Positions 6,094 through 58,739 of a stretch of DNA of 64,000 nucleotides are shown one piece after another. The stretch is from Myxococcaceae bacterium (GTDB taxonomy: Bacteria > Myxococcota > Myxococcia > Myxococcales > Myxococcaceae): contig JAIBBQ010000003.1 in the NCBI GenBank assembly GCA_019694595.1, forward strand, positions 1-64,000, written 5' to 3'. The first letter of the stretch is position 1. Each line of letters starts with the position of its first letter. A model generated the notes under the pieces. The model saw nothing but the letters and a program-made list of their open reading frames with translations, ran no database searches and was not told the origin of the DNA. Both the position numbers and the translations under genes were made by a program.

Positions 6094-6105
6094 AGGAAGA
6101 CGACC

Positions 6106-6947: not shown

Positions 6948-6957
6948 GCTCACCCCG

Positions 6958-30300: not shown

Positions 30301-33300
30301 CTCGAGGAGATGCCGCTCAACTCCAACGGCAAGATCGACCGCAAGAAGCTGCCGGCGCCCGAGCTGACCCCGGAAGGGTCCAACCTGGTGGCGCCGCGCA
30401 ACGTGTTCGAAGAACTCGTGGCCAGCGCCTTCGCCAGGGCGCTCGAGCTCGCCAAGGTCGGCGCGACCGACGACTTCTTCGCGCTCGGTGGTCACTCGCT
30501 GCTGGCGGTGCAGGTCGTCGCCCACCTGCGAGAGTCGACCGGCGTCGAACTCCCGCTGCGCACGGTGTTCGAAGAGCCCACGGTCGAGAAGCTCGCGCGC
30601 AGCTTGCAGAGCGCGCACGCCGTTCGACAGGGCAGCACGGCCATCCCGCCCGTGACGCCGGCGCCCCGCAACGGCCCCCTCCTCGCGTCGTTCGCGCAGG
30701 AACGGTTGTGGTTCGTCGAGCGCACGCACCCCGGTGACACCGGGTTCAACGTCGTCGACGCGTTTCGAATTGCCGGCCCGCTGAACCACCCAGCGCTCGA
30801 ACGGGCGATGACCGACCTGCTGCGCCGCCACGAGGTCCTGCGAACGACCTTCGCCGAGATCGACGGGGTCCTGATGCAGCGGTTCACGGCCCCTGCGCCA
30901 GTGGTGCTGCCGCCGCTCGACCTCGCAGGCGATGCCCCTGCCGTCCAGCAGACCAGGATGCAGACCCTGGTGGAGGAGGCCGACGCGCTGCCCTTCGACC
31001 TCGAGAAGGGGCCGCTGTTCCGGCACCGTCTCGTCCGCCTCGGCGCCGAAGACCACGTCCTGCTGCTGTCGTTCCACCACGCCGTGATGGACGGGTTCAC
31101 TCTGCTCATTCTGCTGCAGGACCTGAGCGCCCTGTACCAGCACGCCATCGGCGAGTCGAAGACCCCGCCCCCGGAGCCCAAGCTGCAGTACGCCGACTAC
31201 GCCATCTGGCAGCGGAAGTGGCTCGAGGGCGGCGAGATGAAGGCGCAGCTCGACTACTGGAAGAAGGCGCTCCAAGGGTCACCCGGGGTGCTCAATCTCC
31301 CGACCGACCGGCCCCGCGAGCGCGGAGCGAGCGGTCAGGGCAAGGGCGGCTACACCTCGAGGCCGATCGGCAAGGGCATCGCGACCGCGCTCGAGCGGCT
31401 GGGGCGCGAGCGGGGCGTCACCCAGACGATGCTCCACCTCGCCGGCTTCACCACCCTGCTGCACCGCCTGAGCGGAGACGAAGACGTGAGCGTCGGCATC
31501 GACGCCCAGTCGCGGGCAGCGCCCGAGCTCGAGCGGGTGTCGGGCATGTTCCTCAACCTGCTCGTGCTGCGCATGCAGCCGCAGGGCGACCAGGCCTTCA
31601 ACGAGCTGTTGACCCACGTGCGCGACGTCGCCCTCGGCGCCTACTCGCACCAGGATGCCCCCTTCGAGCGCATCGTCGAAGCGGTCAACCCCAGCCGGAC
31701 GCTGAACCGCACCCCGCTGTTCCAGGCGGCGTTCGACTACCAGCCGTTCTCCTCTCTCGAGGAAGCAAGCCGGTTCCGGGTCTACCAGGTGAAGGCCACG
31801 CGATCGGCGCTGATGGGCGAGATCTACCTGCGCATTCGGGCCGAGCGCGAAGGGCTGATCGCGCAGCTCATCTACGACGAGACCCTCTTCGAGGCGTCCT
31901 CGGCGGACCGGCTGCTCGAGCAGTACGAGCAGCTGCTGCGCTCCATCTGTGCGGCGCCGGCGGCACCACTCGCGGCGCTGAACCTGGTCAACGACCAGCA
32001 GCGCCAGCAGGTGCTCAACGACTGGAACCAGTCGAACCGCACCTACCCGAAGACCAGCACCTTCGAGGTGGTGTTCAAGGCCCAGGCCGCGAAGACCCCC
32101 GGCGACGTGGCGGTCGTCTTCGGCGCCCGGTCGCTGACCTACAAGGAGCTGAACGACGCGGCGATGGGCGTCGCCGCGGCGCTCGTCGAGGCCGGGGTGG
32201 GGCCCGGCGACCTGGTCGCCCTGCTGTCGCCCAGAACGCCCGAGCTGATGTCGTCGATGCTGGGCACGTTCCTGGCGGGGGCCGCCTACGTCCCGCTCGA
32301 CCCGCATCACCCGCCGGCGCGCCTGGCCACGGTGATCGCGCGCGCGAAGCCCAAGGTGGTCATGTCGAGCAAGGACCTCGACCCGCTGCTGACGCAGGTG
32401 CTCGCGCAGGGCGATGCGAGCGACAAGCCGCGGCGGCTGCCGTTGACCGCGTCGGCTGCGCCGCGCGCGTTGCCCGAGGCCAAGCCGGGCGACCTCGCCT
32501 ATGTGATCTTCACCTCCGGTTCGACGGGCGTGCCCAAGGGCGTGATGGTGGAACGGCAGGGCATGCTGAACCACCTCTACGCCAAGCTGAACGACCTCGA
32601 GCTCTCTCCGCACGACTGCGTCGCCCAGACGGCGTCGCAGTGCTTCGACATCTCGGTCTGGCAGTTCTTCGTCGCCAGCCTGGTGGGGGCACGCACCCGC
32701 ATCGTGCCCGACGAGGTGACCCACGATCCCCGCGCGCTGCTGGCGGACTCCACCAGCGGCAAGGTGACCGTGCTCGAGGTGGTGCCTTCGATGCTGCGGG
32801 CCATGCTCGACGTGCCCGTCTCCCCCGAGGTGGCGCTCGGCCACCTCCGGTGGATGGTCGCGACCGGTGAAGCGCTCCCCGGAGAGCTCTGCCAGCGCTT
32901 CTCGGCCCGCCACCCGCGGGTGCCGGTGGTCAACGCCTACGGCCCGACCGAGTGCTCGGACGACGTCACCCACGCCATCATTCCCAAGGGGAGCGAACGG
33001 GCCACCGCGCCGGTGGGCAAGCCGATCCAGAACACCCGCATCTACGTGCTCGACCCGCACGGCTCGCCGACGCCCATCGGGGTGCCGGGTGAAGTGTACG
33101 TGGGCGGCGACGGAGTGGGCCGCGGGTACCTCGACGACCCCGCCCGCACTGCCGACGCGTTCGTCCCCGACCCGTTCGGCCCGCCCGGCGCCCGGCTGTA
33201 CCGCACCGGCGATCGTGGCCGCTGGCTCCCGACCGGGGAGCTCGAGTTCCTCGGCCGGCTCGACTTCCAGGTCAAGGTGCGCGGCCACCGCATCGAACTG

Positions 33301-34674
33301 GGCGAGGTGGAAGGCGCACTGGCCAGGTGCGCCGGCGTCAAGGAAGCCGTCGCCGCCGCCACGCCCGACGGCTTGCTCGTCGGCTACGTCGTCCCGGCCG
33401 GCAGCGCGCCGCTCGACACGGCCGCGCTGCGCACGCAGCTTCGCGAGTCGCTCCCGGAGTCGATGGTGCCGGGCGCGGTGGTGGTGCTGCAGGAGCTGCC
33501 GCTCACCTCCACCGGCAAGCTCGATCGCAAGCGGCTGCCCGCGCCGACCAGCGAGCCCCTGGCGCAGCGCGAGCGGGTCGCCCCCCGCAGTCCGCTCGAA
33601 GGCCTGGTGGCGGGCGTCTGGGCAAAGGTCCTCGGGCACGACCAGGTCGGCGCCCTCGACAACTTCTTCGAGGTCGGTGGGCACTCACTGCGCTTGGTGA
33701 CGCTGGCGCACGAGTTCGAGCGGGCGCTCGGGGTGGGCCTCAGCCTCTCGGAGCTGGTGAACCACCAATCGGTGGCCGCACAGGCGGCGCTGCTCGCCGA
33801 ACGGCTGCACGGCGGCCGCGCCAAGACCTCGTCGACGACGCTGAAGGTGCTCCGCCCCGGGGAACCGATGGTGTTCGCCATTCACGCCATGCTCGGGGAC
33901 GCGCTGCTGTACGAGCTGTTGACCTCGGTGATGCCGGCCGGGCCGGGGCTCAGCGCCATCGAGGCCCCCGAGCTCGTGGGTGGCGCGCCGCTGCCGACCT
34001 TCGAGGCCCGCGCCGCAGCCTACCTGCGGCTCATCACCGCGGCGCAGCCCAAGGGGCCGTACCGGCTGCTGGGCTACTCGAACGGCGGCGCCATCGCGTG
34101 GGAAGTCGCCCGGCAGCTGCTCGCCCAGAACCAGCAGGTCGAGTACCTCGGCCTCATCGACCCGTCGCTGGCGGCGGCCGGCCTGCCGGCGGTGGCCAAG
34201 CTCGACGACGTGGTGCCGGTCGCCCACTCGCCGTTCTCCGAGGGCTCGACGGACACCGCGCGCCTGTTCGAGACGTTCGCCGAGGCGTTCTTCGAGGCCC
34301 CGGCCAAGGCGACGCTGAAGAAGCTCGGGCCCCCGGAGCGGAGGCGGGCGTTCATCGTCGAGCAGGTGCTGACGATGTCCGGGGCGAGCCCGGCCGGAGG
34401 CGAGGCCGCCGCGCTGCGGCTGGCGAGCGCGGTGCTGGCGATCAACGAGGGGCAGGCCGCGTACACCTACCGGCCGCTGCCGGTGCACGTGGACGCGATG
34501 GTGTCGGCCGAGAACTCGGCCGGCTTCGAGGCGGTACTGCCGGGGTGGAAGACGCTCGCCACCCGCGGCGTGCGGGTACACCGGCTCCCCGGGACGCACC
34601 GGGACATCATCTCGTTCCAGAGGAACGCCCCGCTCGCAACTGCGATCGTCGAAGGCGTGCGCCAACCCAAGTGA
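27358..34674 (+). CDS. NRPS1: C-A-T-C-A-T-TE
   Basis: A 2438-residue two-module NRPS ending in a thioesterase, so it releases the product. Order and approximate residues: C1 45-480 (HHIVTDG at 179), A1 500-990 (TSGSTGTPKG; NCYGATE), T1 1010-1080 (Ser1047 in GGHSLL), C2 1100-1540 (HHAVMDG at 1240), A2 1555-2050 (NAYGPTE), T2 2070-2140 (Ser2110), TE 2160-2435 (Ser2241 in GYSNGG). The start has a good AGGAG. By eye, the Stachelhaus-type residues are D-I-W-Q-P-T-C-D-D for A1, which has a three-residue insertion (WWV) before the 299 region, and D-I-W-E-V-T-A-D-D for A2. Two acidic residues at 330/331 suggest a cationic substrate. It overlaps hydroxylase 2 by GTGA. Confidence 0.93.
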   Translation: MSQPTDSQGPTSAADKRALLQEMLKQREAAGTRAGGAIAPRADKSSTPLSFAQERILLIEALEPDTATHNVPMSLRIKGALDLAALEQSFTALLARHDVLRATFAFNKGVGTQRIGPPAPVKLEVIDLSSRPAPAAESELLRIIDADALLPFKLELGPLSRAKVVKIAADDHAIVWTIHHIVTDGLSTPVLLRDLFDHYSAVTAGRPAQSVLPIQYADYAAWQRTPAVAQVINGQVAYWKRQLEGANFALAFPTDRVRGPKPTSVGSEAFFEIPPATYQAAQALAQKHQATMFMVLEAAYAALLHHYTEQTDICVGTVVGGRSRPETLNLVGPFINPVVLRTKVSATTSFNDLITRTRQTCLEAFSNAEAPFEKVVNAVDADRDQSRHPLYQTIFELQGTPSGGEHQGLRFSPLLPRLRVSRIELSWLLFPLNGGLFGRIEYASELFEADSIKRIATHFSKLLAEACAAPDRPVGRIRFLDEREDALVRTTWSTTGTSEVGDLTFEELFLKQAERTPNNVAVEYLEESLTYQELARKTLTVAGALTAKGIRGGEVVALFSERTPDLLAAIIGTFHTGAAYVPLDPQHPPARLAQVIGRSHAKVVMVSERFMDAAKEAVAEIAADQRPQLLPIDAAGPELSPPPKNPMRSLAYVIFTSGSTGTPKGVMIERRGLVNHLQAKIRDMQLGPSEIVAQNASQCFDISIWQFLVALLLGSRTRILPEETARDPRELMSEVERTGVTILQVVPSMLRAVLDMPMNHRPSLRAVWWVPVTGEALPGDLVTRWHDAYPGIPLLNCYGATELSDDISHAVLAENCDRAIAPLGKPVHNSSMYVVNASGDLSPIGVPGEVCVGGEVVIGRGYLDDPVRTALSFVPNPFSSEPGARLYRIGDRARWRADGSLDFMGRVDFQVKVRGHRIELGEVEAALLKCEGVRQTVVIARDDVLVGYVVPHDGATVVSETLRATLKRSLPEYMVPAVITLLEEMPLNSNGKIDRKKLPAPELTPEGSNLVAPRNVFEELVASAFARALELAKVGATDDFFALGGHSLLAVQVVAHLRESTGVELPLRTVFEEPTVEKLARSLQSAHAVRQGSTAIPPVTPAPRNGPLLASFAQERLWFVERTHPGDTGFNVVDAFRIAGPLNHPALERAMTDLLRRHEVLRTTFAEIDGVLMQRFTAPAPVVLPPLDLAGDAPAVQQTRMQTLVEEADALPFDLEKGPLFRHRLVRLGAEDHVLLLSFHHAVMDGFTLLILLQDLSALYQHAIGESKTPPPEPKLQYADYAIWQRKWLEGGEMKAQLDYWKKALQGSPGVLNLPTDRPRERGASGQGKGGYTSRPIGKGIATALERLGRERGVTQTMLHLAGFTTLLHRLSGDEDVSVGIDAQSRAAPELERVSGMFLNLLVLRMQPQGDQAFNELLTHVRDVALGAYSHQDAPFERIVEAVNPSRTLNRTPLFQAAFDYQPFSSLEEASRFRVYQVKATRSALMGEIYLRIRAEREGLIAQLIYDETLFEASSADRLLEQYEQLLRSICAAPAAPLAALNLVNDQQRQQVLNDWNQSNRTYPKTSTFEVVFKAQAAKTPGDVAVVFGARSLTYKELNDAAMGVAAALVEAGVGPGDLVALLSPRTPELMSSMLGTFLAGAAYVPLDPHHPPARLATVIARAKPKVVMSSKDLDPLLTQVLAQGDASDKPRRLPLTASAAPRALPEAKPGDLAYVIFTSGSTGVPKGVMVERQGMLNHLYAKLNDLELSPHDCVAQTASQCFDISVWQFFVASLVGARTRIVPDEVTHDPRALLADSTSGKVTVLEVVPSMLRAMLDVPVSPEVALGHLRWMVATGEALPGELCQRFSARHPRVPVVNAYGPTECSDDVTHAIIPKGSERATAPVGKPIQNTRIYVLDPHGSPTPIGVPGEVYVGGDGVGRGYLDDPARTADAFVPDPFGPPGARLYRTGDRGRWLPTGELEFLGRLDFQVKVRGHRIELGEVEGALARCAGVKEAVAAATPDGLLVGYVVPAGSAPLDTAALRTQLRESLPESMVPGAVVVLQELPLTSTGKLDRKRLPAPTSEPLAQRERVAPRSPLEGLVAGVWAKVLGHDQVGALDNFFEVGGHSLRLVTLAHEFERALGVGLSLSELVNHQSVAAQAALLAERLHGGRAKTSSTTLKVLRPGEPMVFAIHAMLGDALLYELLTSVMPAGPGLSAIEAPELVGGAPLPTFEARAAAYLRLITAAQPKGPYRLLGYSNGGAIAWEVARQLLAQNQQVEYLGLIDPSLAAAGLPAVAKLDDVVPVAHSPFSEGSTDTARLFETFAEAFFEAPAKATLKKLGPPERRRAFIVEQVLTMSGASPAGGEAAALRLASAVLAINEGQAAYTYRPLPVHVDAMVSAENSAGFEAVLPGWKTLATRGVRVHRLPGTHRDIISFQRNAPLATAIVEGVRQPK

Positions 34675-36299: not shown

Positions 36300-37769
36300 T
36301 CAGCTCGCGGAACGCCGCCAGTGGAAGCCGTCGAGCGACGGCACCAGGCCACCCTCGAACAACGGCTTCTCGACGGCGACCCGCCGTTCGCGTTCGCGCC
36401 CGAAGCTGGCCTGCGCCAGCATCTGCGCCGCCTCGCTGCCCAGCAGGTGCTGGGTCACGCCATCACCCTCGCCGTGAGGCTTCGGGGGCGCGGTGCCCGT
36501 GGGCGCCCCCGGCGAGATCGCGGCGCCGGCGAACTCCTGCGGGTTCTCGTAGAGCTGCTCGTCGTTGTTGGCCCCGGCGACCAGCCGGACGAAGGCGGTC
36601 TTCGCCTCATCGTCGGAGGAGACGATCCGGCGCGCGTGCCAGAAATATGAGCTTTCGTGCTTGTTCCAGTCGTAGAAGCCGACCAGAAAATCGTGGAAGT
36701 TGTTGTACTCGCGGCGGTAGCGCCGCTCGTACTCGATGAAGCACTCCTCTTCCTCGAGATCGCCTCGGAGCACGGTGTTGATGGACCGGGCCGCCTGCAA
36801 CCCGCTGTAGGTCGCGAGGTGCACCCCCGTGGAGATGATGGGGTCGATGAAGCAGGCGGCATCGCCGCACAGCATCATGCCGGGCTTCCAGAACTTGGTG
36901 TTCATATAGGACCAGTCGCGGCGAACGCGGTACTCGCCGTACTCGCCCGTCTCCACGCGCTTCGCCGTCGAGAGGTGGTCCTTGATGATGGGCGCGCGCT
37001 CGATGAGCTCCCTCATCGCCACGTCGTTCCCCTTCTTGAGGATGCCGGCGTGCTCCTTGCCGATCACCGCGCCGACGCTCGTCAGCTTGGGGGACAGCGG
37101 AATGAACCAGAACCACCCCATGTCGAACGCGATGATGAGGATGTTGCCGTCGCTCGGGGGCGGCATGCGCTTGGCCCCCTCGTAGTAGGCGAACAGGGCC
37201 ATGTTCTGGAAGAACTTGGAGAACACCCGCTCACCGACTTGCTCGTGGAAGCGGGTCGTGTGGCCGCTGCAGTCCACCACCACGCGGGAGGTGGCGCGCC
37301 CTTCCTTGCCGCTGCCGTCGGTGAACCTGACCCCGGTGACTCGCCCACGCTCCTCGATGATCTCGCTCACGGCGTGCTGCTGGCGAACGTCGACGCCCTT
37401 GCGCGCGGCGTTGTTGATCAAGATGGCGTCGAAGCGGGACCGCTCGACCTGGTACGCGTACCCGGTGGGGTCGGTGAGCGCGCGGGCGAAGTGGAACGTC
37501 CACGGATCCGGGCTCGCGCCCCACTTGCAGTAGCCGCCGAACTTCTTCTGGAAGTTGGCTCGCTTGACCTCGTCGGCCACGCCGAGCATCGGGACGATTC
37601 CGTGAATCGTCGACGGCAGCAGCGACTCACCGATCGAATACCTGGGGTGCTGGACCCGGTCGAGCAGCAGCACCTTGTGCCCCTGCATCGCAGACAAGGT
37701 GGCGGCGGTGGACCCCGCCGGCCCTCCGCCAATGACCACGACATCGAAACGCTCTGGCTGCATGCTCAC
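36300..37769 (-). CDS. FADH2-dependent halogenase
   Basis: A 489-residue flavin halogenase. The FAD motif is GGGPAGSTAAT, and the halogenase signature WFWFIP (WxWxIP) is in FDMGWFWFIPLSP. SIGESLLPSTIHGI and GDAACFIDPIISTGVHLATYSG are typical of the group acting on carrier-bound phenols or other acyl groups. The sequence closely recalls CndH of chondrochloren biosynthesis from a myxobacterium. A GTG at 37769 sits 5 bases after AGGAGG; an ATG two codons later is possible. It needs reduced FAD from a separate reductase. It follows the type II thioesterase gene by 46 bp on the same strand, so both are likely one operon. Confidence 0.92.
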   Translation of the reverse strand: MSMQPERFDVVVIGGGPAGSTAATLSAMQGHKVLLLDRVQHPRYSIGESLLPSTIHGIVPMLGVADEVKRANFQKKFGGYCKWGASPDPWTFHFARALTDPTGYAYQVERSRFDAILINNAARKGVDVRQQHAVSEIIEERGRVTGVRFTDGSGKEGRATSRVVVDCSGHTTRFHEQVGERVFSKFFQNMALFAYYEGAKRMPPPSDGNILIIAFDMGWFWFIPLSPKLTSVGAVIGKEHAGILKKGNDVAMRELIERAPIIKDHLSTAKRVETGEYGEYRVRRDWSYMNTKFWKPGMMLCGDAACFIDPIISTGVHLATYSGLQAARSINTVLRGDLEEEECFIEYERRYRREYNNFHDFLVGFYDWNKHESSYFWHARRIVSSDDEAKTAFVRLVAGANNDEQLYENPQEFAGAAISPGAPTGTAPPKPHGEGDGVTQHLLGSEAAQMLAQASFGRERERRVAVEKPLFEGGLVPSLDGFHWRRSAS

Positions 37770-41739: not shown

Positions 41740-41748
41740 GGACCGACC

Positions 41749-42897: not shown

Positions 42898-43263
42898 CGG
42901 TGTGATCGGGTGGGGAGCGCAGGGACTGGCGCCCCACCCGGTGTCGTGAAGTCGAGCAGGGCTGTGGCCTCCCTCGGGCCACGGCGTCGACCAGGGTGGG
43001 ACGCGCTGCCAGCAGTCTGCAGGAGCGAACGCCCTGAGGCCCTGCTGCGAGGTACCGGTGGTGGGTGTGCGCTGACGTGCGCAACCGCTCCGTCGGGAGC
43101 CGGGGCTCACCGGGCAGGCTGAAGCAGCTCATGGGCGGCCAGCGCGTGCAGCGCTGTGAACTGTGGGACTCGCTTCGGCTATCGTCACCCTCCTGCCACC
43201 CGGCACCCTCGGCGCCCGCGGCCCCCCGGGGCGTGAGCGCGAGCGCATCATCGGAGAGACACC
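42898..43263. other. 366-bp intergenic region without a supported gene
   Basis: It begins with a strong hairpin (42907-42940). Short open frames exist here (for example 42910-43122) but lack a ribosome-binding sequence and recognisable protein features. The promoter of the TIM-barrel/formyltransferase gene should be in the second half; I cannot locate it. CGGAGAGA lies a few bases before that gene's GTG. Confidence 0.5.
42907..42940 (+). terminator. Terminator-like hairpin after the cytochrome operon
   Basis: cgggtgggg (42907-42915) pairs perfectly with ccccacccg (42932-42940), nine pairs, 10 bases after the stop of the lipoprotein gene. There is no T-tract. Confidence 0.5.
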
Positions 43264-45072
43264 GTGAGGGACACCTCGAAACAGCCGCCGACGCCCCACG
43301 CTGAGTTCTGGACCTCCGGAGGGGGTCCTACGGACTCTGGACCACTCCAGGTGTTTCTCGGCGCGCCGGTCGACGCGCTGACGGCGAAGCCGCTCGGCGG
43401 GCTGTGGGCCGCCGCGCTGCTCGTGGTGTCGACGGCCTCCGGGCTCGAGACCGACCAGGTCGAAGCCCTGGAAGAGCTCACCCTGTCGCGCAAGCAGCGC
43501 GTCGTCGCGTCGGTGGACCTCGAACCCAGCCAGGACCAGAACCTCCGCCCCCACTTGAAGCTGCTGAAGGCAGCTGGAGTCGCAGCCGTCGAGCTCGACT
43601 TCACCGCCGCGAGCGCCTCGCTGCCCATCTCCCGCGTGCTCGCCCTGGTGCGGCACCAGGTGTTTCAGGCGCGCACCACCTTTCAGGGGCCCGTGTGGGC
43701 CAAGTTTCCCATCGGCCACGAGGTCCCTGGCATCTGGCTCGCGCAAACGGCGATCGAGAGCCACGTCGGCGCGGTGTGCTTCGCCCCCTCGGTCAGCAAG
43801 TGGGGGTCGGTGGACCTCACCTCGATGGACGTGCGCGCTCCCTGGCCGGGGCTCGACGCGCGGAGTGTTCAGCTCGTGGAGCTGAACCGTTCCATGGACG
43901 CGATGGTGCGGCTGCGATCGGAGATCTCCTGCGCCCAGGTGGTCCTCGGCTTCGACGATGTCCCCCCGGAGGCGTTCGGGGCGGCCATCGCGGCAGGGGC
44001 GTTCGCGGTCCGGCTCCCCCGCGCGCGCACCACCCCTGAACACCTCGCCGTCGTGGAAGAGGAGCTGTCCACCTCGACGCGGAAGGCGGGAGTTGCGGCG
44101 GTGGCGGAACTCCAGGACCTGGCCCAGGCGCCGCTGCGCGCGTCCATCACCAGGGTCCCGCCTCGGAAGCGGAACAGGCCGGGCATGACGGGGAGCTTCA
44201 ACACACTCCCGGTGCCCCGAGCGACCGCGGTCCTGATGACGGGGTATCCGCACGGGGCGCAGTACGGGCTCGAGGCCATGAAGCTCAACAGCGTCGAGTG
44301 CAGTGGCATGGTCATCGCACAGCGCTCGTTCGGTCACCAGAACCCCGCCGGGCCACATGCGGGCTTCGAAGCTCCGCACGACGTTCCGGTCCTCCTCTCT
44401 CCGCGCCTGGGACCGGTGCGGCCCTTCATCGAAGCGATCAAGCCCGACTTCATCATCTGCTACCACTTCCCGTGGAAGTTGCCGGCCGAGGTGCTCAACC
44501 TCGCCCGGCTCGGCGGCATCAACATTCACCCGTCGTTGCTGCCCGACTACCCAGGCGGACAGGGCGGCTCGTCCATCGGCTGGGGGCTCCGCAACGGTGA
44601 CGAGCAACTCGGCGTCACCGTGCACCGGATGACGTCCGACTACGATCGCGGCGCGATTCTCCATCAGGAAGCGTTCGCGAACGACGAGACCATGCGGGTG
44701 TGGGACGCGTCGCTCGCCGGAGAGCGCGTGGGCATCACCGCGATGACCAAGGCCATCGCGGCGCTCCTCGCCGGCGAACCGGGCCGGCCCCAGGTCGGTG
44801 AAGGGCGCCCTGCCCCGCCATTCGAGCCGGAGTTCGAGCGGCTCGACTGGGCCAAGCCGGCCGCCGACCTGGACCGTCAGGTCCGGGCGTGCTCCCAAGG
44901 CGCCAAGGCACAGGTGGCCGGCGCTTCGCTCAACGTCATCCGGACTCGGGTGAAGTCACGGACCGGTGCAGCCAGCCCACCGGGGACGGTGCTCGCCCGG
45001 CTCCCGACCAGGCTCACCGTGCAGTGCGGAAGCGGGGAGCTCGAGCTGCTCGACTTCGACGTGGTCGGCTAG
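43264..45072 (+). CDS. TIM-barrel domain fused to methionyl-tRNA formyltransferase-like domain
   Basis: A 602-residue fusion. Residues about 25-275 read like a TIM barrel of the dihydroorotate-dehydrogenase type: VVASVDLEP strand, AAGVAAVELDF, GPVWAKFPIG, a late AAIAAGAFAVRL strand/phosphate-loop region. The match is by eye and moderate. Residues about 300-490 are a formyltransferase: NIHPSLLPDYPGG with Asn420 and His422, and TVHRMTSDYDRGAIL with Asp461, giving the complete Asn-His-Asp set. Residues about 520-600 resemble the C-terminal domain of methionyl-tRNA formyltransferase. Likely role: N-formylation of an amino group in the peptide or of an N-hydroxy-amine. A GTG start after CGGAGAGA. 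It converges on NRPS2. Confidence 0.82.
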   Translation: MRDTSKQPPTPHAEFWTSGGGPTDSGPLQVFLGAPVDALTAKPLGGLWAAALLVVSTASGLETDQVEALEELTLSRKQRVVASVDLEPSQDQNLRPHLKLLKAAGVAAVELDFTAASASLPISRVLALVRHQVFQARTTFQGPVWAKFPIGHEVPGIWLAQTAIESHVGAVCFAPSVSKWGSVDLTSMDVRAPWPGLDARSVQLVELNRSMDAMVRLRSEISCAQVVLGFDDVPPEAFGAAIAAGAFAVRLPRARTTPEHLAVVEEELSTSTRKAGVAAVAELQDLAQAPLRASITRVPPRKRNRPGMTGSFNTLPVPRATAVLMTGYPHGAQYGLEAMKLNSVECSGMVIAQRSFGHQNPAGPHAGFEAPHDVPVLLSPRLGPVRPFIEAIKPDFIICYHFPWKLPAEVLNLARLGGINIHPSLLPDYPGGQGGSSIGWGLRNGDEQLGVTVHRMTSDYDRGAILHQEAFANDETMRVWDASLAGERVGITAMTKAIAALLAGEPGRPQVGEGRPAPPFEPEFERLDWAKPAADLDRQVRACSQGAKAQVAGASLNVIRTRVKSRTGAASPPGTVLARLPTRLTVQCGSGELELLDFDVVG

Positions 45073-45123: not shown

Positions 45124-48100
45124 TCAGCCGTCGAGCAGCTGCTCGATGCTCGCGTGGTAGCGGCGCAGCAGCACCTCGATGGTGGCCGTCGAGTACGCAC
45201 CTGCGCTGAAGCTGAAGCTGGTGCGCAGGACGCCCTTGGCGACGCCGGCGTTCACCTCGAGCAGCAGGTCCTTGCGGGTGCGGGCGGCGTCCACGGGGCC
45301 TTCGACGCCAGGAGCCATGGTGAAGAGCGTCGACTCGGCGAGCGCATGGTCGAGGACCCCCATGTAGTTGAAGCAGACGGCAGAGGGCGGGAGCTTCGCC
45401 ATCGCCGAGCGCACGCTCGGTTCGGCCAGGTACTTGAGCACAATGTACCCGAGCCCGTTCCTCGGCACCGCGCGGTTGGCGCGCCGAACCTCGGCCAGGC
45501 GCTCGGCCCAGCTGGAAGCGCCGACGTCGAGGAGCACGGGGGCGTACGCGGTGAACCACCCCACCGTGCGCGAGAGATCGAGCCCTGGGACCACGTCTTC
45601 GCGACCGTGGTGCTCGACGTCGAGCTGCAGCACCTGTCCGCCTGCCCACCCCGTGCACGCGGCGGCCAGCGCGGTCATCAGCAGCTCATGGGGCCGGGCC
45701 TGTGCGGACCTGAGCAGCGCGCGGGTGTGCCCCTCGTCGAGGGTTGCGTGGACCGTGCGCATCGAGTCCTTGGTCATCGGCCCGGTGAGTTCCTTGGGGA
45801 GCGTCACCGCACGCGACCATGGTTGCTGGGTCCAGTACGGCAATTCCTCGAGGAGCGCGGGGGACCGGGCGAACTCGGCCAGGCCGGTGGCCCAGCGCGA
45901 GAGGTCGGAGGTGGTCGCGCCAACGGGCGCCTCCTGCGCCTGCCCCTGGGACGCATAGGCGGCCTCCAGGTCTTCGACGATGACCCGCCAGGAGACCACG
46001 TCGACGACCAGGTGGTGAACGACCAGGAGCACCCAGCCTGGCGCAGCGCTCCCCCGGTTCACCGCGACGGCCTTCACCAGGGGTCCCTGCTGGAGATCGA
46101 AGTCGTGCACATCGGCGGTCTGCTCGGCGAGGCGCCGCTGCTGGGCCTCGACCCCCTCGACACCGCTGACGTCAACCACCGCCACCACGGGAGGCCGCAG
46201 CCTGGCTCCCAGTTCCTGGCTGGCCGATTCTTCCCCCAGGCCGTGAATCCGGGTGGCGAGTGCACGGTGCCGCGCCACGACGGTGCCCAGGGAACGGGTC
46301 AGGCGCTCGACGTCGACCTGACCTTTGAACTCGAGGAGGAGCGACTGCGAGTACCTCGGCACATCCGAGAGGGGGTGCTCGGTGAAGAACCACCGCTGGA
46401 TCGGGGTGAGTGGCACTCTCGAGTCGAGCACCTGGGCGGAAGCGCTGGCTGTGGTCACCTTGGCTGCGGCGGCGATGCCGCTGATGGTCTGACGCGACAG
46501 CACGTCGGCGACCGAGAGCGACAGGCCATGGCGGGCGACCTTGGCGACGAGCTGGAGACTCAACAGCGAGTCGCCCCCCAGCTCGAAGAAGTTGCTCTGG
46601 CCAGAGACCGACGACGCTCCCACCAGGCTGGCCACCGCCTCGGCGACCACGCGCTCGGCGTTGGTGGTGAGCCCACTGGCGCCCCCTTCGCTGGGCGCAT
46701 CATTGGTCGGAACGGGGAGCGCGTTGCGATCGACCTTCCCGGTGTGGGTCCGAGGCAAGCGGTCGAGCTGCATCAGGATCGCCGGCACCATGTGCGCTGG
46801 CAACGAGGTCCGCAGCTGCGCCCGCAGCGCGTCGAGCGTCACTTGCGCCCCGGGCTTCCCCGTGAAGTAAGCGACCAGCTGGGCCTGGCCTTGCGCGAGC
46901 GTCTTGACGGCGACCACCGCATCCTCGACGCCGTCCGTTCGCCGCAGAACGTCTTCAATCTCTCCTGGCTCGATGCGCAGCCCGCGCAGCTTGATCTGCT
47001 CGTCGGCGCGCCCCTGGAAGAACAGAGTGCCATCGCTGCGCTGTCGAACGAGGTCTCCGGTCCGGTAGAGGCGCGCCCCGGGCGGTGCTCCTGGAAACGG
47101 GTCGGGGACGAACCGCTCTGCCGTGAGTGCCGCCTGTCCGCGGTAGCCGCGGGCGACGCCAGCCCCCCCCACCACGAGTTCACCGACCGCGCCCAGCGGC
47201 ACCGGGCGGAGGTCAGGCCCCACCACGGCCACCATTGCTCCGGCGATGGGCTGACCGATCGGGACCACCCCATGGCCAAGCTCGCAGGCACCCACCGTGC
47301 ATTCCACGGAGGTCTCGGTGGGCCCGTACCGGTTGAAGAACGTCGCCTGGGGTCGCCACCGGTTGACCAGCGCCGGGGTGCACGCCTCGCCTCCGCTGCT
47401 GACCACCACGACCTTCGGCAGCTGCTCAGGGCGGAGCGTGGCGAGCACACTCGCCGGAAGATTGAGGTGCTCGACCCCATGCTTGATCGCGAACGCCTCG
47501 AGTTCCACGCCACCGGGACACTTCGGCGGCGCGATGCAGAGCGTGCGCCCCCCCGCGAGCGCCCAGAACAGGTCGTTCATCGACGCGTCGAACGCCGGAG
47601 AGATGAACTGCAGCGCACGCTGCCCACCGAGCCCCTGGAACTGATCGAGGGCCGCGGCAATGGTGTTCGCCACGCCTCGGTGGAGCACTTCCACGCCCTT
47701 GGGTGCCCCGGTGGAGCCCGACGTGTAGATGAGGTAGGCGACCTGGTCGGGGCTCACGGGCCGGGGCTCGAACCCCACGGTCCAGGACACCTGCTCCAGG
47801 CGAACCGCGCGCTCGTCGAAGGGCTCGGGGATCTTGTCCCAGAGGGCCCCTCGGGTGATGACCAGCTGGGTCCCCGAATCTCGAAGAACCAGCGCGAGCC
47901 GCTCGGCGGGGAAGTCCGGGACCAGCGGCACGTAGATGGCGCCCGCCTGGAGCGTCGCCACCACGGACACCACCCAATCGACGCCGCGCTCGAGGAAGAC
48001 GCCCACCGGGACCCCTGGGCCCGCGCCGCGCTTCACCAGCGCGGCGGAGAGCGCGTCGGCCCGCTCAATCAAGTCGCCGTAACTGAGCTCCTGGTCGCTG

Positions 48101-49626
48101 GTGACCACAGCGACCTGGTCGGGCGCCCGCATCGCCTGGGCCCGAACTGCTTCGTGGAGCAAGGTCCTGGCTCGCGGGCTCGGGGCCCGGACCCGGGCGA
48201 GCGCCGCGAGCTCGGCGCGTTCCTCGGCACTGGCCAGCTCGAGGTGCGAGAGCCGAATCCGAGGCTCGCGCACCACCGCCTCGAGGAGCACGCGCAGGCG
48301 AGCCCACAGCCGCAGGACTTCGGCCTCGCTGAAGAGATCGGTGCGCAGATGAAGCCGGGCACCGAGCTCGCCGGTGGCCCTGAGCTCGAACACCCGAACC
48401 GCGAGATCGAACTTCGAGCGGCCGACCATGACCGGCTCGAGCCGCGCCGAAAGTCCGGCGAAGGGCACGGCATCGGGAATCTCTTCTTCGTAGTTGTAGA
48501 TGATCGAGGTGGGGAAGCCGCGCCCGGCGTCCCGCTCGCCGCGCATGGCCGAGACGACGCGGTCGATGCCGGTCTCTCGGTGGGTGATGGCCTCCAGACA
48601 GCGGGTGCGAACCTGCGCCAGCACCTCCTGGAAGGTGGGGTCCCCGGTCCACACGGTTCGCAGCAGGAGCGTGTTCTCGAAGCACCCCACCACGTCCCTG
48701 AGGTCCGGGTGGGTCCGGGTGTCGACGGAGGTGCCGATGAGCACGTCGGAGGTGCGGCACAGCTTGCCCACCAGCACCGCCAGCGCCGCCTCGAGGAAGG
48801 CGAAGGGGGTCGTCTTCTCTGCCCGACACGCCGCCTTCACCGCCGCGAGCAGCGCGGCCGGCATGGGCGGCGGCATCAGCATGCGACCTTCGAAGGTCTC
48901 CGTGCCGGGCGCCGGGCGTGTCAGCGCGAGGTCGGGGGCCGCGGGTGGCGCCGCCAGGACCCGCTTGAAATACTCCAGCCCCGCGTCGCCGCGGGTGGCG
49001 GCCGATTCGCGTTCCCAGGCGGCGTAGTCGGCGTACTGGAGTTTCCCGGGCGCGGCCGACGGCTGCCCCGCGAGCTCTCGCGCGTAGTGGTCGGCGAGTT
49101 CGAGGACCAGCAGGCGAAGGCTCCAGGCATCTTGCAGGGCGCCGTGGAGCGAGAAGAGCAGCGCATGCCGCTCGGGGGAGAACGCATACAGCCGCGCGCG
49201 CACCAGGGGACCGACGCGCACGTCGGCCCCGGTCCCCACCACCGAGAGCACCTTCGCGTGCAGCTGTTCGAGCGTGGCGGGCCGGAGCTGCTCGATCTCG
49301 AGCGGCGCCGCCGCGGGGCTCACGCGCTGAACGAAGCGTTCCTGGATCTCGGGGAAGGTCGTGCGGAGGGGCTCGTGTCGTGCGGTGAGGGCCGCGTAGG
49401 CCCGCTGGAGCGCCTGTCGATCGAGGGTGCCCTCCAGATGCACGAGGATGGTGACCCACCAGCTCGGCCCCAGCGGCTCCAGCTGCTCCAGGTAGAGCAG
49501 CCGCTCCTGCGCGGTCGAGATGGGAAGGTCGCCGCGCCTCTCGATGGGTCTGGGACCCGCGGGCCTCTCGCCCGCCTGCCGGTTGCGAAGCGCCTTTTCG
49601 AGAATCGCCCTCTTGCTCTCGGACAC
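45124..49626 (-). CDS. NRPS2: C-A-T-E
   Basis: A 1500-residue single-module NRPS. C-like domain about 35-460; its HHxxxDG motif reads LHGALQDA (His161, Asp166 kept, first His and Gly lost). A about 480-965 (TSGSTGAPKG; NRYGPTE; HTGKVDR). T about 985-1055 (Ser1020 in GGDSLL). Epimerisation domain about 1070-1490 with HHLVVDVVSWR (His1204, His1205) and VGWFTAYAP, so the module delivers a D-residue. By eye the specificity residues are D-A-N-N-S-G-R-V-E, for which I know no match; the acidic 331 may favour a basic side chain. There is no release domain, so it must pass its residue to another protein. It is divergent from the cytochrome/ABC operon. Confidence 0.92.
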   Translation of the reverse strand: MSESKRAILEKALRNRQAGERPAGPRPIERRGDLPISTAQERLLYLEQLEPLGPSWWVTILVHLEGTLDRQALQRAYAALTARHEPLRTTFPEIQERFVQRVSPAAAPLEIEQLRPATLEQLHAKVLSVVGTGADVRVGPLVRARLYAFSPERHALLFSLHGALQDAWSLRLLVLELADHYARELAGQPSAAPGKLQYADYAAWERESAATRGDAGLEYFKRVLAAPPAAPDLALTRPAPGTETFEGRMLMPPPMPAALLAAVKAACRAEKTTPFAFLEAALAVLVGKLCRTSDVLIGTSVDTRTHPDLRDVVGCFENTLLLRTVWTGDPTFQEVLAQVRTRCLEAITHRETGIDRVVSAMRGERDAGRGFPTSIIYNYEEEIPDAVPFAGLSARLEPVMVGRSKFDLAVRVFELRATGELGARLHLRTDLFSEAEVLRLWARLRVLLEAVVREPRIRLSHLELASAEERAELAALARVRAPSPRARTLLHEAVRAQAMRAPDQVAVVTSDQELSYGDLIERADALSAALVKRGAGPGVPVGVFLERGVDWVVSVVATLQAGAIYVPLVPDFPAERLALVLRDSGTQLVITRGALWDKIPEPFDERAVRLEQVSWTVGFEPRPVSPDQVAYLIYTSGSTGAPKGVEVLHRGVANTIAAALDQFQGLGGQRALQFISPAFDASMNDLFWALAGGRTLCIAPPKCPGGVELEAFAIKHGVEHLNLPASVLATLRPEQLPKVVVVSSGGEACTPALVNRWRPQATFFNRYGPTETSVECTVGACELGHGVVPIGQPIAGAMVAVVGPDLRPVPLGAVGELVVGGAGVARGYRGQAALTAERFVPDPFPGAPPGARLYRTGDLVRQRSDGTLFFQGRADEQIKLRGLRIEPGEIEDVLRRTDGVEDAVVAVKTLAQGQAQLVAYFTGKPGAQVTLDALRAQLRTSLPAHMVPAILMQLDRLPRTHTGKVDRNALPVPTNDAPSEGGASGLTTNAERVVAEAVASLVGASSVSGQSNFFELGGDSLLSLQLVAKVARHGLSLSVADVLSRQTISGIAAAAKVTTASASAQVLDSRVPLTPIQRWFFTEHPLSDVPRYSQSLLLEFKGQVDVERLTRSLGTVVARHRALATRIHGLGEESASQELGARLRPPVVAVVDVSGVEGVEAQQRRLAEQTADVHDFDLQQGPLVKAVAVNRGSAAPGWVLLVVHHLVVDVVSWRVIVEDLEAAYASQGQAQEAPVGATTSDLSRWATGLAEFARSPALLEELPYWTQQPWSRAVTLPKELTGPMTKDSMRTVHATLDEGHTRALLRSAQARPHELLMTALAAACTGWAGGQVLQLDVEHHGREDVVPGLDLSRTVGWFTAYAPVLLDVGASSWAERLAEVRRANRAVPRNGLGYIVLKYLAEPSVRSAMAKLPPSAVCFNYMGVLDHALAESTLFTMAPGVEGPVDAARTRKDLLLEVNAGVAKGVLRTSFSFSAGAYSTATIEVLLRRYHASIEQLLDG

Positions 49627-54214: not shown

Positions 54215-56101
54215 GTGCTTGACGAGAACACTGCCACTGCGGTCGCGCCGGGGACGTGCGGAGAACTCATGCAGGGTGTCATCGGGGGGCGCGACTTCCT
54301 GGTGACGAGCCCGATCGACTTCTTCTCCACGGTGACGGTGACGCTGCGCCCAGGCGAGGAGATCGTCGTCGAAGGCCTCAAGGACTTCTCGAAGGTCATC
54401 ACCGCGGTGCGGCTGACCCTCAAGGAGCTCGGCGTCAGCGGCATGGGCGGGAAGGTGCAGGTGCAGTCGAGCATCCCTCGGTCCAAAGGCATGGCCTCGA
54501 GCAGCTCGGACATCACGGCGGCGGTGCTCGCGACCGCGGAGGCCGCGGGCAAGGCGGTGCCTCCCTACACCATCGCGCGCACGGCCGTGGAGATCGAGCC
54601 GTCGGACGCCGTGTTCTTTCGTGACGTGGTGATCTTCGACCACATCCGCGGCGAGCTCTTCGAGCTGCTGGGGCCGCCCCCCAGTTTGAACTTCGTCATC
54701 GTCGACACCGGAGGGGAGATCGACACCCTGGAGTTCGACCGAGAGAGCGCGCGGGCGAATGCACGCAAGCACGAGAGCGAGCTGGCGCGCGGGCTCGATC
54801 TGGTCCGGCGCGGGTTCCGACAGCGCCGCCCTGATCTGGTCGCGGAAGGGGCGACGCTGAGCGCGGTCTGCCACCAGAAGGTGCTGGTGAAGCCCAAGTT
54901 CGACGACCTGCTGAAGAGCACCGCGGAGGTCGGCGCGCTGGGCGTCAACTGTGCCCACAGTGGAACGGTCCTCGGCGTGATGTTCGACCCCACGACCACC
55001 CCCGCGGAGCCGATTCTGGAGCGAACCGCGAAGCTGTTCGGCGAGCGGGCGATCATCGGCAATTTCCGCTTGATCTCCGGAGGCTCGCGGCTCGTTCATT
55101 CGTCGAAGGCCAACCTCACGCCCGCACAGCTGACGCAGATGAAGACACTCGGCACGCCGGCGCAGCGGCACCGTGTGGGCGAGATGATGGTACTGGAGTT
55201 CGAGTCGGAGAACGATCGCGCGCACCGGACCTTCGTCATGCCCGACGGGAGCACGCGCGCATCGAGCCCCGACCCCACCGAGGGCTACTGGAACAACCCC
55301 GCGGTGGTTCGCCCAGCCGAAGGCGAGCTGTGGGAAATGCAGGTGCGCGCTGACGTGACCGGGCCGGTGGTCTGGTACGAGCCCGCGGGAGGCAACCGCT
55401 CGGTGGTGCCCACGGTTCGCCTGCTCGACCGGGCGAGCTTCGAGGCGGGGTTCGTGAAGACCGGTGACGTGTGGACCCGGCAGGTGCGCGTCACGGGGGT
55501 CCAGGACGGTGCGGTCTCCCACGTCGGTGTGCACGACCAGAGCAGACGAGACCGCCTTCCGCTCCCCGTCTTTCTGGCGACCTTCTCGCGCTGCAAGACC
55601 GAGGCGCCCGGCAGCGACCTGCTGCGCCGGTTCCTCAAGGCGAACGCGGTGCGCGGCGAGCTGGTGTCGACGGGGCGGCACATGCCGACGGTGCCCGACG
55701 CAGCGGCCGCGCTGAACGTGACCCCAGGACAGATCGTGAAGTCGATTCTGTTCGAGGCCAAGAAGAAGGACGTGGTCGGCATGGCGATCGTGCCGGGCGA
55801 CGTCCGGGTCTCGATGCGAAAGGTGGCCGACGCGCTCGGGCTGCCCTCGCTGCGACTGGCGAAGGCCGAGACCGTGCTCCAGCGCACCGGCTATGCGGTG
55901 GGTGGCGTTCCACCGGTCGGGTACATCACCTCGGTGCCCGTGGTGGTGGACAGTGGGGTGATGAAGCACGCCTCGGTGTACGGCGGCGGCGGTGACGAGC
56001 TGCACATGCTCAAGATCTCCCCGGAGGAGATCGTTCGCCTCACGGGCGCGCGCACCAGCGACGTGGTGGAAGGGCCAGCCGACCGAGGCCCCGAACCATG
56101 A
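54215..56101 (+). CDS. GHMP kinase (threonine kinase-like) fused to YbaK/ProX editing domain
   Basis: A 628-residue fusion with a GTG start. Residues 1 to about 300 are a GHMP kinase of the L-threonine kinase (PduX) type: APGTCGELMQG opening, LVTSPIDFFSTVTV, and the Gly/Ser-rich ATP loop RSKGMASSSSD (residues 89-99). About 300-470 is a linking region I do not recognise. About 472-615 is a YbaK/prolyl-tRNA-editing domain with the conserved Lys509 in QIVKSILF, VPGDVRVSMRKVADALG, TGYAVGGVPPVG and GGGDELHMLKI. First of four overlapping genes. Proposed roles: make O-phospho-L-threonine for 2,3-diaminobutyrate synthesis and, by the YbaK part, clear tRNAs mischarged with a Thr analogue. The second role is inference. 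Confidence 0.87.
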   Translation: MLDENTATAVAPGTCGELMQGVIGGRDFLVTSPIDFFSTVTVTLRPGEEIVVEGLKDFSKVITAVRLTLKELGVSGMGGKVQVQSSIPRSKGMASSSSDITAAVLATAEAAGKAVPPYTIARTAVEIEPSDAVFFRDVVIFDHIRGELFELLGPPPSLNFVIVDTGGEIDTLEFDRESARANARKHESELARGLDLVRRGFRQRRPDLVAEGATLSAVCHQKVLVKPKFDDLLKSTAEVGALGVNCAHSGTVLGVMFDPTTTPAEPILERTAKLFGERAIIGNFRLISGGSRLVHSSKANLTPAQLTQMKTLGTPAQRHRVGEMMVLEFESENDRAHRTFVMPDGSTRASSPDPTEGYWNNPAVVRPAEGELWEMQVRADVTGPVVWYEPAGGNRSVVPTVRLLDRASFEAGFVKTGDVWTRQVRVTGVQDGAVSHVGVHDQSRRDRLPLPVFLATFSRCKTEAPGSDLLRRFLKANAVRGELVSTGRHMPTVPDAAAALNVTPGQIVKSILFEAKKKDVVGMAIVPGDVRVSMRKVADALGLPSLRLAKAETVLQRTGYAVGGVPPVGYITSVPVVVDSGVMKHASVYGGGGDELHMLKISPEEIVRLTGARTSDVVEGPADRGPEP

Positions 56102-57636
56102 GCGTCGGAGCGGGCGTGGGGCGCCTGGCGAGCGGGCCCCACCCGACGCTCTTCCGGCTCCTATACGAGCCAGCCCTGGAGCACGACCTGGAGGTCGTGC
56201 TCCCCCAGCTCCTCGACGTCGACGCCGCGCACGTGGTGATGGCGGTCACGCGCGGGCTGTTGCCGGCGGAGGTGGGGGCATCGCTGCTCTCGGTGAACCG
56301 GGAGCTCGCCCAGGCGATCGCCGCGGGCAAACAGCCGCTGGCGGTGCCCGACATCCACCGCGGCATGTATTTCCTGTACGAAGGCGAATACATCCGCCGG
56401 CTGGGGCCGCAGGTCGGCGGCAGCGCGCACGTCGCACGCAGCCGCAACGACATCAACGCCACGATCTTCCGCATGCGCGCACGCTCCGCGGTGATCGAGC
56501 TCCTCGAGCGTCTGCACGGGTTCACCGCCGCGCTGTCAGCGTTCGCGCGGCGACATGCGGGAACGCTGGTCTGCGGCTTCACACACCTACAACCTGCCCA
56601 GCCCACGACCGTGGGCCACGTCTTCTCCGGGGTGCTGGGCGAGCTGACGCGAACCGCCGACTGGCTGGCGCAGGCCTATCCTCCCCTCAACCGGTCGCCG
56701 ATGGGCGCGGCTGCAGGGCTGGGAACCTCGTTCCCCATCGACCCGCACCAGGTGGCGAGCCTCCTGGGGTTCGACGCTCCCATCGACAACTCGATCGACG
56801 CGGTCGGCAGCCGGGACTCGTCGGTCCACGTCCTGGCCCCGCTGGCGCTTCTGGGCACGACCCTGAGCCGGTGGGCGCTCGACGTGCAGCTGTGGGCGAG
56901 CGCGGCCTACGGCTTCCTCGACTTCGGTGACGACCTGGTGAGCACGAGTTCCATCATGCCGCAGAAGCGCAACGCCTTCGTGCTCGAGAACATCCGGGGC
57001 CAGGCCGTGCGCGCCACCGGGGCGCTGATGACCACCCTGATGGGGCTCAAGAACACCCCTTTCACCAACAGCGTCGAGGTCAGCGGGGAAGCGGCCTCGC
57101 ACCTGTGGGCGGGTGCCGCGGCGAGCGTTCAGGCGCTGGAGCTGGCGACGCTGCTGGCGTCGCAGCTGATCATGCGTCCTCAGGAGGCCACCAGGTTCCT
57201 CGAAGGAAAGGACACCACGATGACGGCCCTGGCGGACGCGCTGGTCTCACAGTTGGGCCTCAGCTTTCGGACCGCGCACGAGGTGGTCGGGACGCTCGTC
57301 GCGCGCGCCCCCCGGGGAGGGGTCGGTGAAGAGGCGCTGCGCTCGATCTTGCCGTCGCTGCTCTCGGTCCCGCTGACGGGGGCCCAGCTCGACCGGCTGG
57401 TGCCGGTGCTCTCGCCCGCCGGCGCGGTGCAGGCCGCCGCGTGGGGAGGCGGGCCGTCGCCCGCCGCGGTCGAAGGACAGCTCGACCGGCTCGATGCACG
57501 TCGGCGCGCTCGTCAAGAAATGGTCGATGGCTGGAAGGCCTCGCTCGCACGCGCGCGCGAGCGACTGAGTGGAGCGGTCTCGGAGACGATGGCAGGCTCG
57601 GCACCCCGAGGCGAAAACAGGGAGACGACACGATGA
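56098..57636 (+). CDS. Argininosuccinate lyase family protein (fumarate-releasing)
   Basis: A 512-residue member of the argininosuccinase/fumarase superfamily. SRNDINATIFRMRAR, GFTHLQPAQPTTVGH (catalytic His region) and the mobile signature loop STSSIMPQKRNAF (Ser284/Ser285) are intact. Placed between a Thr-kinase-like and a cysteine-synthase-like gene, it is unlikely to serve arginine synthesis. The expected reaction is elimination of fumarate from an N-succinyl adduct (aspartate joined to C3 of a C4 amino acid), leaving a 2,3-diamino acid; as I recall this is the role proposed for DabB in friulimicin. ATGA overlaps both neighbours. Confidence 0.9.
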   Translation: MSVGAGVGRLASGPHPTLFRLLYEPALEHDLEVVLPQLLDVDAAHVVMAVTRGLLPAEVGASLLSVNRELAQAIAAGKQPLAVPDIHRGMYFLYEGEYIRRLGPQVGGSAHVARSRNDINATIFRMRARSAVIELLERLHGFTAALSAFARRHAGTLVCGFTHLQPAQPTTVGHVFSGVLGELTRTADWLAQAYPPLNRSPMGAAAGLGTSFPIDPHQVASLLGFDAPIDNSIDAVGSRDSSVHVLAPLALLGTTLSRWALDVQLWASAAYGFLDFGDDLVSTSSIMPQKRNAFVLENIRGQAVRATGALMTTLMGLKNTPFTNSVEVSGEAASHLWAGAAASVQALELATLLASQLIMRPQEATRFLEGKDTTMTALADALVSQLGLSFRTAHEVVGTLVARAPRGGVGEEALRSILPSLLSVPLTGAQLDRLVPVLSPAGAVQAAAWGGGPSPAAVEGQLDRLDARRRARQEMVDGWKASLARARERLSGAVSETMAGSAPRGENRETTR

Positions 57637-58739
57637 AAGTTGGTTCGGTGCTGGAGCTGATCGGGAAGACGCCGCTCGTCAAGTTGCGAGGGCGTGAGCA
57701 GTCGAAGCCGCGCGCCAGCCTGTGGGCCAAGCTCGAGCTGGCCAATCCCGGCCAGATGAAGGACCGGGTGGCGATGCAGATGGTCCTCGATGCCGAGCGC
57801 ACCGGGGTGCTCAAGCCAGGCGGGATGATCGTCGAGAGCAGCTCGGGGACCATGGCCGAAGGCCTGGCGCGCGTGGGCACCCTCAAGGGCTACCCGGTGA
57901 TCATCGTCACCGACCCGCGCATCGACAAGAGCACCGAGGCCAAGTTGCGGGCGCTGGGGGCGCAGCTCGAGATCGTCAGCGAGTACCACCCGACCGGGGG
58001 CTGGCAGGTCTCCCGGCTCGCCCGGTTGAAGGAAGTGATGGCCCGCAACCCCGGGGCCTTCTGGCCGAGGCAGTACGACACGCCGAGCAACCCCGGCGCG
58101 TACGAAGCGACGCTGTCGCAGGAGCTGGTCGCCGACCTCGGGACCAAGATCGGGGCGCTGGTGGCGACCGTGGGCAGCGGCGGGTCGCTCAGCGGCAACG
58201 CGCGGGCGCTGCGCAAGCTCTGCCCCGGACTGAGGGTGGTCGCGGTCGATGCGGTGGGGTCGGTTCAGTTCAACCAACCCAACAAGAGCCGCCTGCAGTC
58301 GGGTCACGGCAACAGCATCATCGCGGGCAACATCGACTACTCGGTGATCGACGAAGCGCACTGGATCCACGACGGCGAGTGCTTCAACGCCTGTCGCGAG
58401 CTGGCCCGACGCGAAGGCATCTACGGTGGAGGGTCTTCCGGTGCGGTGTACGTGGTGGCGAGCTGGGTGGCGCAGCAGCTCCCTGAAGATCAGCACGTGG
58501 TGATGATCTGCTGCGACAGAGGTGACCGGTACGGTGAGAACATCTACAGCGACGAGTACTTCCAGAAGCACGGCCTGACCGGGGTGGTGGCGGCCGGTGA
58601 GCCGAAGCGCATCAGGTACGGCGTCGACGTGGCCGAGCGCTGGAGCTGGGCGCCACTGCCTCACGACGGCAGCGTCCCGTACTACGCGGCGGACATCACC
58701 AAGAGCGGTGACCTCACCCGGTCCCTGGGGCTGGGGTGA
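57633..58739 (+). CDS. Cysteine synthase/CBS-like PLP enzyme (beta-replacement)
   Basis: A 368-residue fold-type II PLP enzyme. IGKTPLVKL, the PLP Lys43 in NPGQMKDRV, the substrate loop ESSSGTMAEGLA (in place of the SGNTG of cysteine synthase) and the phosphate cup TVGSGGSLSGNA are present. It is about 45 residues longer than CysK, with the extra part at the C-terminus. The altered substrate loop and the neighbours suggest beta-replacement of O-phosphothreonine (or O-phosphoserine) with the amine of aspartate, which the neighbouring lyase then cleaves. SbnA of staphyloferrin B synthesis is a related known case using phosphoserine and glutamate. Overlaps both neighbours by four bases. Confidence 0.9.
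   Translation: MKVGSVLELIGKTPLVKLRGREQSKPRASLWAKLELANPGQMKDRVAMQMVLDAERTGVLKPGGMIVESSSGTMAEGLARVGTLKGYPVIIVTDPRIDKSTEAKLRALGAQLEIVSEYHPTGGWQVSRLARLKEVMARNPGAFWPRQYDTPSNPGAYEATLSQELVADLGTKIGALVATVGSGGSLSGNARALRKLCPGLRVVAVDAVGSVQFNQPNKSRLQSGHGNSIIAGNIDYSVIDEAHWIHDGECFNACRELARREGIYGGGSSGAVYVVASWVAQQLPEDQHVVMICCDRGDRYGENIYSDEYFQKHGLTGVVAAGEPKRIRYGVDVAERWSWAPLPHDGSVPYYAADITKSGDLTRSLGLG

Follow-up and report, generated by a model that had tools for sequence, protein, structure and literature searches.

The domains to which formyltransferases are joined often reveal the function of the whole protein, as in HoxX, ArnA and LgrA. In HoxX and ArnA the formyltransferase is fused to a second catalytic domain; the partner in HoxX is an enoyl-CoA-hydratase-like domain which acts after the formyl-THF domain, and the partner in ArnA is a decarboxylase and not a barrel. 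In LgrA the partner is an A-T module, and the formyl domain stands first in both HoxX and LgrA. In our study, a window of 64,000 nucleotides (the whole stretch of DNA analysed) from a Myxococcaceae bacterium was found to encode a protein, P0001, in which a formyltransferase is joined to a domain that is probably a beta/alpha barrel of the dihydroorotate dehydrogenase (DHOD) or dihydropyrimidine dehydrogenase (DPD) type. The features of its gene are the following.

43253..43256, + strand: GGAG box resembling a ribosome-binding site, 7 nt before the GTG start, read in the sequence
43264..45072, + strand: fusion protein P0001 (barrel and formyltransferase), 602 aa, an open reading frame of 602 codons with a GTG start
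43342..44133, + strand: N-terminal domain, residues 27-290, a probable divergent DHOD/DPD-type beta/alpha barrel without the flavin-site residues (profile, AlphaFold2 half barrel, Foldseek, alignment)
44185..45069, + strand: predicted C-terminal formyltransferase, residues 308-602 (PF00551 and PF02911; alignment A1)
44521..44529, + strand: codons of the catalytic N420 and H422 in the motif NIHPSLLP (alignments)
44644..44646, + strand: codon of the catalytic D461 (alignments)
44824..45051, + strand: Formyl_trans_C (PF02911), residues 521-596, 46.2 bits against a Pfam cut-off of 21.1

The open reading frame of P0001 is a real and continuous one. The G+C content at codon positions 1/2/3 is 0.72/0.51/0.89 in the N-terminal half and 0.70/0.51/0.87 in the C-terminal half, and this sameness indicates that both halves are coding in one frame. 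In the C-terminal half, Formyl_trans_N (PF00551) is matched by residues 389-471 with 69.2 bits, the curated Pfam cut-off being 26.1. The residues N420, H422 and D461 are invariant in alignment A1, which comprises 10 sequences (P0001 and nine unfused proteins). In a wider formyltransferase alignment of 31 rows, H422 is found in all 31, and N420 and D461 in 29; the two rows without them are one tandem paralogue counted twice. The original prediction of an intact Asn420/His422/Asp461 site is thus borne out, the residues being present and conserved and the Pfam cut-offs exceeded, and from its sequence the region 308-602 is a complete 10-formyl-THF-type formyltransferase. A Chloroflexia MAG (L107) has two formyltransferases in tandem (5482-6384 and 6478-7476, both on the + strand), and the first copy, with the catalytic Asn and Asp replaced by Y and A, appears as a pseudo-formyltransferase next to the intact one.

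The nearest relatives of the C-terminal half are unfused formyltransferases of about 300 aa from Myxococcaceae and Chloroflexota-type bacteria (L050-L059, L104-L113). They resemble P0001 in being of the Formyl_trans_N/C type, in the N-H-D site, in the motifs FPW[KR][IL]P and FE..[FY]..[IL]DW and in an identity of about 30-40%, whereas they are without the barrel, and the three-residue insertion GGQ which follows HPSLLPDYPG in P0001 is absent from the nine others in A1. In the tree, P0001 stands on a long branch (1.86) within this unfused group and apart from Fmt. The neighbours of the unfused genes vary, including beta-lactamase-like, glycosyltransferase and SAM synthetase genes; at L050, a beta-lactamase-fold protein (8295-9326, + strand) lies immediately upstream of the formyltransferase.

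Searching with the C-terminal half gave matches in 77 of 195 Myxococcota genomes at E <= 1e-20, a set which, judging by its lower rows, probably includes the housekeeping Fmt. The open frames of the best 23 non-self matches (E 6e-41 to 4e-30) have 256-396 codons and could not hold both domains; this count covers those 23 rows, and some longer frames occur among the lower ones. A search of the species genome contigs with A1 returned 72 stretches with 11 relatives, of which ten (L104-L113) hold formyltransferases without a fusion partner, their open frames running to 294-396 aa, and the eleventh (L114) matches only weakly, over a short run of 30 residues. Further candidates for a fusion, the 653-codon open frames seen in G217 and G236, were rejected, as the formyltransferase at these places has an open frame of 286 aa.

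For the N-terminal domain, five of the 195 Myxococcota genomes gave a match at E <= 0.01, one of them being the P0001 gene itself. Of the other four, the loci inspected were L004 and L007, and neither showed a fused or evidently related protein; L005 and L006 are matches of about 60 residues. The phylum of the Chloroflexota-type genome G195 gave one match among 400 genomes at E <= 0.001 and no true relative, this match (L208) being spurious, antisense in a long helicase-like frame. Plasmids gave no match to the domain at E <= 10. A coarse scan of 84,980 species genomes with P0001 matched 15 stretches, none of them a relative, and a scan of viral contigs gave no match; both scans rest on short peptide patterns by which distant relatives can be missed, and phyla beyond Myxococcota and that of G195 were covered by such scans and the plasmid search only. 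The domain order had been described as one not known from any characterised enzyme, and this stands: no second barrel-formyltransferase fusion was met in the genomes, plasmids and contigs searched, and none is evident in the open-licence literature searched. The fusion unites in a new way two domains of kinds already known, and within the searches made the architecture is seen so far in one genome.

The identity of the N-terminal half was approached through profiles, since it is matched by no Pfam model, PF01180 included, and by no NCBIfam model at E up to 10, and phmmer against the PDB gave one chance match (E 0.62). The DHOD-like family PRK07565 (NF005741, cut-off 303 bits), which was the family suspected for this domain, is absent from the matches that NCBIfam gives for P0001 at E up to 10, and the match of the source genome to NF005741 has 69 bits only and lies elsewhere. 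A DHOD-like profile built from 43 Myxococcota rows, among which are duplicates and at most three rows of DPD type, matched residues 67-286 co-linearly with its positions 93-306 at 8.7 bits (hhalign probability 19.8%). On residues 27-300 it gave 9.1 bits, above all shuffles in runs of 2000, 3000, 5000 and 5000, the margin being small in the 3000-shuffle run, the best shuffle of which reached 8.5 bits. The combined DHOD-like and DPD set has 66 rows, the same 43 and 23 of dihydropyrimidine-dehydrogenase type; the up to three DPD-type rows of the DHOD-like set are thereby part of it too. With this profile, the score rose to 12.7 bits, the best shuffle reaching 7.7 (rank 1 of 5001 in two runs), and among the 141 window frames of at least 200 codons P0001 came first with 9.6 bits, the next having 1.6. 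On the other hand, the DPD profile alone placed P0001 only at rank 4 and rank 7 of 5001 in two runs, the class-2 DHOD profile alone gave no match to the domain (-1.8 bits), and with the combined DHOD-like and class-2 DHOD profile P0001 was outscored by at least 5 of 3000 shuffles. The Dus profile, another FMN barrel and the sole TIM-barrel control among these tests, gave no match (-1.1 bits, rank 881 of 5001). Real Dus proteins reach a median of 26 bits on the combined DHOD-like and DPD profile, above P0001, so the assignment is to be read at the level of the superfamily and not of the family.

The structural models are of low confidence. AlphaFold2 from a single sequence was poor for the whole of P0001 (pLDDT 35.5) and gave an alternating beta/alpha pattern with a mean pLDDT of 44 for residues 20-300. 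Block means of 56-78 were seen over residues ~50-149, which hold the first beta/alpha units, and confidence was low for residues ~149-290, the second half of the domain; the model is that of a half beta/alpha barrel. Foldseek against the PDB with this half barrel ranked dihydropyrimidine dehydrogenase at all of positions 1-7 (E 1.1e-3 to 5.4e-3, none under 0.001), over about 92 columns with 20-22% identity. VIA-align gave Z values up to 7.5 for mixed folds, P-loop GTPases and radical-SAM enzymes among them, and by the notes of the tool a Z below 8 is common background. The N-terminal domain is thus probably a DHOD/DPD-type barrel, as read from profiles and a model. The barrel proposed in the original prediction is supported by the combined profile, which exceeds 5000 shuffles, and by the DPD top matches of the half-barrel model, though it is not proven: the fold check on residues 20-300 agrees with it for the first half, the second half being of low confidence.

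An alpha/beta fold other than the DHOD-type barrel, with the profile similarity arising by chance, would accord with the low confidence of the model and its second half, with the equal Z of P-loop GTPases and radical-SAM enzymes, and with the 6 to 10 bits which shuffles of this composition attain against several profiles; we consider it unlikely, as the first rank among 5001 with the combined profile, the co-linear course of the DHOD-like match and the seven DPD structures at the top of the Foldseek result all argue for the barrel. That P0001 is no natural fusion at all, an assembly fault or frameshift having united two genes, is very improbable. M308 does lie close to the start position of the unfused relatives in A1, there is no second copy of the fusion to confirm the join, and the source genome of 7.3 Mb is split over 394 contigs, but the codon bias and the open frame run unbroken across the junction.

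If the N-terminal domain is such a barrel, it has probably lost its flavin, and this is the simplest reading of the residues replaced. P0001 was aligned to the 66 DHOD-like and DPD-type rows at low identity, so that single positions may be misplaced; the roles of the conserved residues in FMN and substrate binding are known from DHOD and DPD structures. Where the rows have the near-invariant Asn of E-x-N (0.98), P0001 has D112; it has P175 for the Asn that is invariant (1.00) in the conserved strand that follows, and V226 for the invariant phosphate-loop Gly (1.00). The catalytic-loop stretch reads DFTAASAS, whereas it is NLSCPH or NFGCPH in the DPD-type rows. With the Asn residues, the Gly and the catalytic loop lost, a flavin or oxidation step, which had been suggested for this protein, is not supported by these positions. 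It is therefore distinctly unlikely that the protein has two activities, with oxidation or reduction of a substrate by a DHOD-type barrel that carries flavin, followed by formylation of this substrate by the formyltransferase. Such a bifunctional enzyme would suit the match to the DHOD/DPD-type profile, the Foldseek matches to DPD, which is an FMN enzyme, and the retention of the invariant Lys (K147), of the E of E-x-N (E110) and of the G245-A246 pair near the phosphate loop; besides the replacements, the segment linking the second strand to the third, which in P0001 is some 40 residues shorter than in DHOD-like proteins, speaks against it, and for an oxidation step the flavin-site alignment would have to be misplaced. 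The barrel may instead catalyse a second reaction of a new type that needs no flavin, perhaps on the formylated product as in HoxX. In favour of this are K147, E110 and D112, all present in the barrel, and the appearance of both HoxX and ArnA among the structural relatives of the C-terminal half. We hold it to be distinctly unlikely, as conservation is unreadable where there are no relatives.

The P0001 gene sits between two parts of an NRPS cluster of peptide-antibiotic type, features of which are the following.

27358..34674, + strand: NRPS gene with two Condensation, two AMP-binding and two carrier domains and a thioesterase (Pfam)
36300..37769, - strand: CmlS-like FAD halogenase-family protein (PF04820; NF033113 280 bits, cut-off 900)
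45124..49626, - strand: convergent NRPS gene (NRPS2) with two Condensation-family domains, one AMP-binding and one carrier domain (Pfam)
54215..59971, + strand: gene row of a GHMP-kinase/tRNA-edit fusion, an argininosuccinate-lyase-like protein, an SbnA-like PLP enzyme and an ATP-grasp ligase (Pfam, NCBIfam)

Two CmlA-like di-iron hydroxylases and a thioesterase are also found on the side of the thioesterase-bearing NRPS, and transporter genes and a VioC-like FAD monooxygenase on the side of NRPS2. The second condensation-family domain of NRPS2 is probably an epimerase, by its motif HHLVVDVVSW, which we take to be an epimerase mark. P0001 and the NRPS genes do not form an operon: NRPS2 is convergent to the P0001 gene, and two genes of other kinds (39805-42897) lie ahead of the P0001 gene. 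At 39805-41739 a secreted multihaem-cytochrome-like protein is encoded among the cluster genes, with a weak MtrC/MtrF match under the cut-off.

The row at 54215..59971 may supply 2,3-diaminopropionate. The SbnA-like PLP enzyme reaches 276 bits (cut-off 350), and a diaminopropionate-ammonia-lyase-like gene at 20317-21426 reaches 282 bits (cut-off 276). Within 56098-58739, the SbnA-like enzyme adjoins the argininosuccinate-lyase-like protein and a split ATP-grasp relative of PRK02186, and these genes possibly form an aspartate-based diaminopropionate route. From the SbnA-like, lyase-like and diaminopropionate-ammonia-lyase-like genes we infer a peptide with diaminopropionate, the amines of which are possible acceptors. 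At 54215-56101, one frame joins a GHMP-kinase-type domain and an editing domain of Cys-tRNA(Pro)-deacylase type, which in related clusters of G097 and G095 are separate adjoining frames. The fusion could combine supply with protection of the producer from an amino acid that causes misacylation. Through the GHMP/tRNA-edit gene, related NRPS clusters were located in G097, G095 and G093; they have the GHMP/lyase/SbnA-type sub-operon in common wholly or partly, and the stretches of them that were covered gave no match to a formyltransferase, to the barrel or to P0001. Corramycin was considered for its self-resistance kinase and set aside: the kinase described in PMC10996006 is of a different family, and the word 'formyl' is absent from that paper's text.

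Taken together, we favour the reading, at a probability of about one in two, that P0001 is a tailoring N-formyltransferase for the surrounding NRPS cluster and that its flavin-free, shortened DHOD/DPD-type barrel binds the acceptor or positions a partner. The formyltransferase half would move a formyl group to an amine from 10-formyl-THF, the donor expected from the family. The barrel, shortened and without the flavin site, would no longer oxidise anything and may bind the acceptor or hold a partner, such as a carrier domain, in place for the formyltransferase. By its position P0001 would serve the NRPS cluster, and the SbnA-like and lyase-like genes make a free amine derived from diaminopropionate a conceivable acceptor. 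A more doubtful proposal, put forward tentatively, is that a DHOD-type barrel without flavin has taken on a new role in an N-formyltransferase associated with NRPS, either as a catalytic domain or as one that docks carrier proteins. If the favoured reading is true, a flavin barrel would here have been put to another use, and P0001 could lead to an unusual peptide bearing an N-formyl group.

In comparison with the known systems, P0001 shares the superfamily and the C-terminal domain with Fmt (TIGR00460); however, it is not Fmt itself, as it scores 88.4 bits against an NCBIfam cut-off of 201.5 and its genome has a separate Fmt-like gene (G000:C77). The best solved relatives of its C-terminal half are a GDP-perosamine-type N-formyltransferase (PDB 5vys, E 3.8e-19) and ArnA (E 5.6e-18), both acting on sugar nucleotides, and methionyl-tRNA formyltransferase is also among them. 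Its N-terminal domain resembles dihydropyrimidine dehydrogenase and PRK07565 in profile and fold, whereas it is shorter and its FMN-site and catalytic residues are replaced. HoxX (E 5.3e-6) and the LgrA NRPS formylation domain (E 4.5e-5) are weak matches to the C-terminal half, and in both the formyltransferase-type domain is likewise fused to another domain. The Pfam scan of P0001 shows neither an enoyl-CoA-hydratase-like domain as in HoxX nor an A or T domain as in NRPS formylation modules. In P0001 the barrel comes first and the formyltransferase second, and on the favoured reading a worn DHOD-type barrel would join the partners of HoxX, ArnA and LgrA as a new formyltransferase partner.
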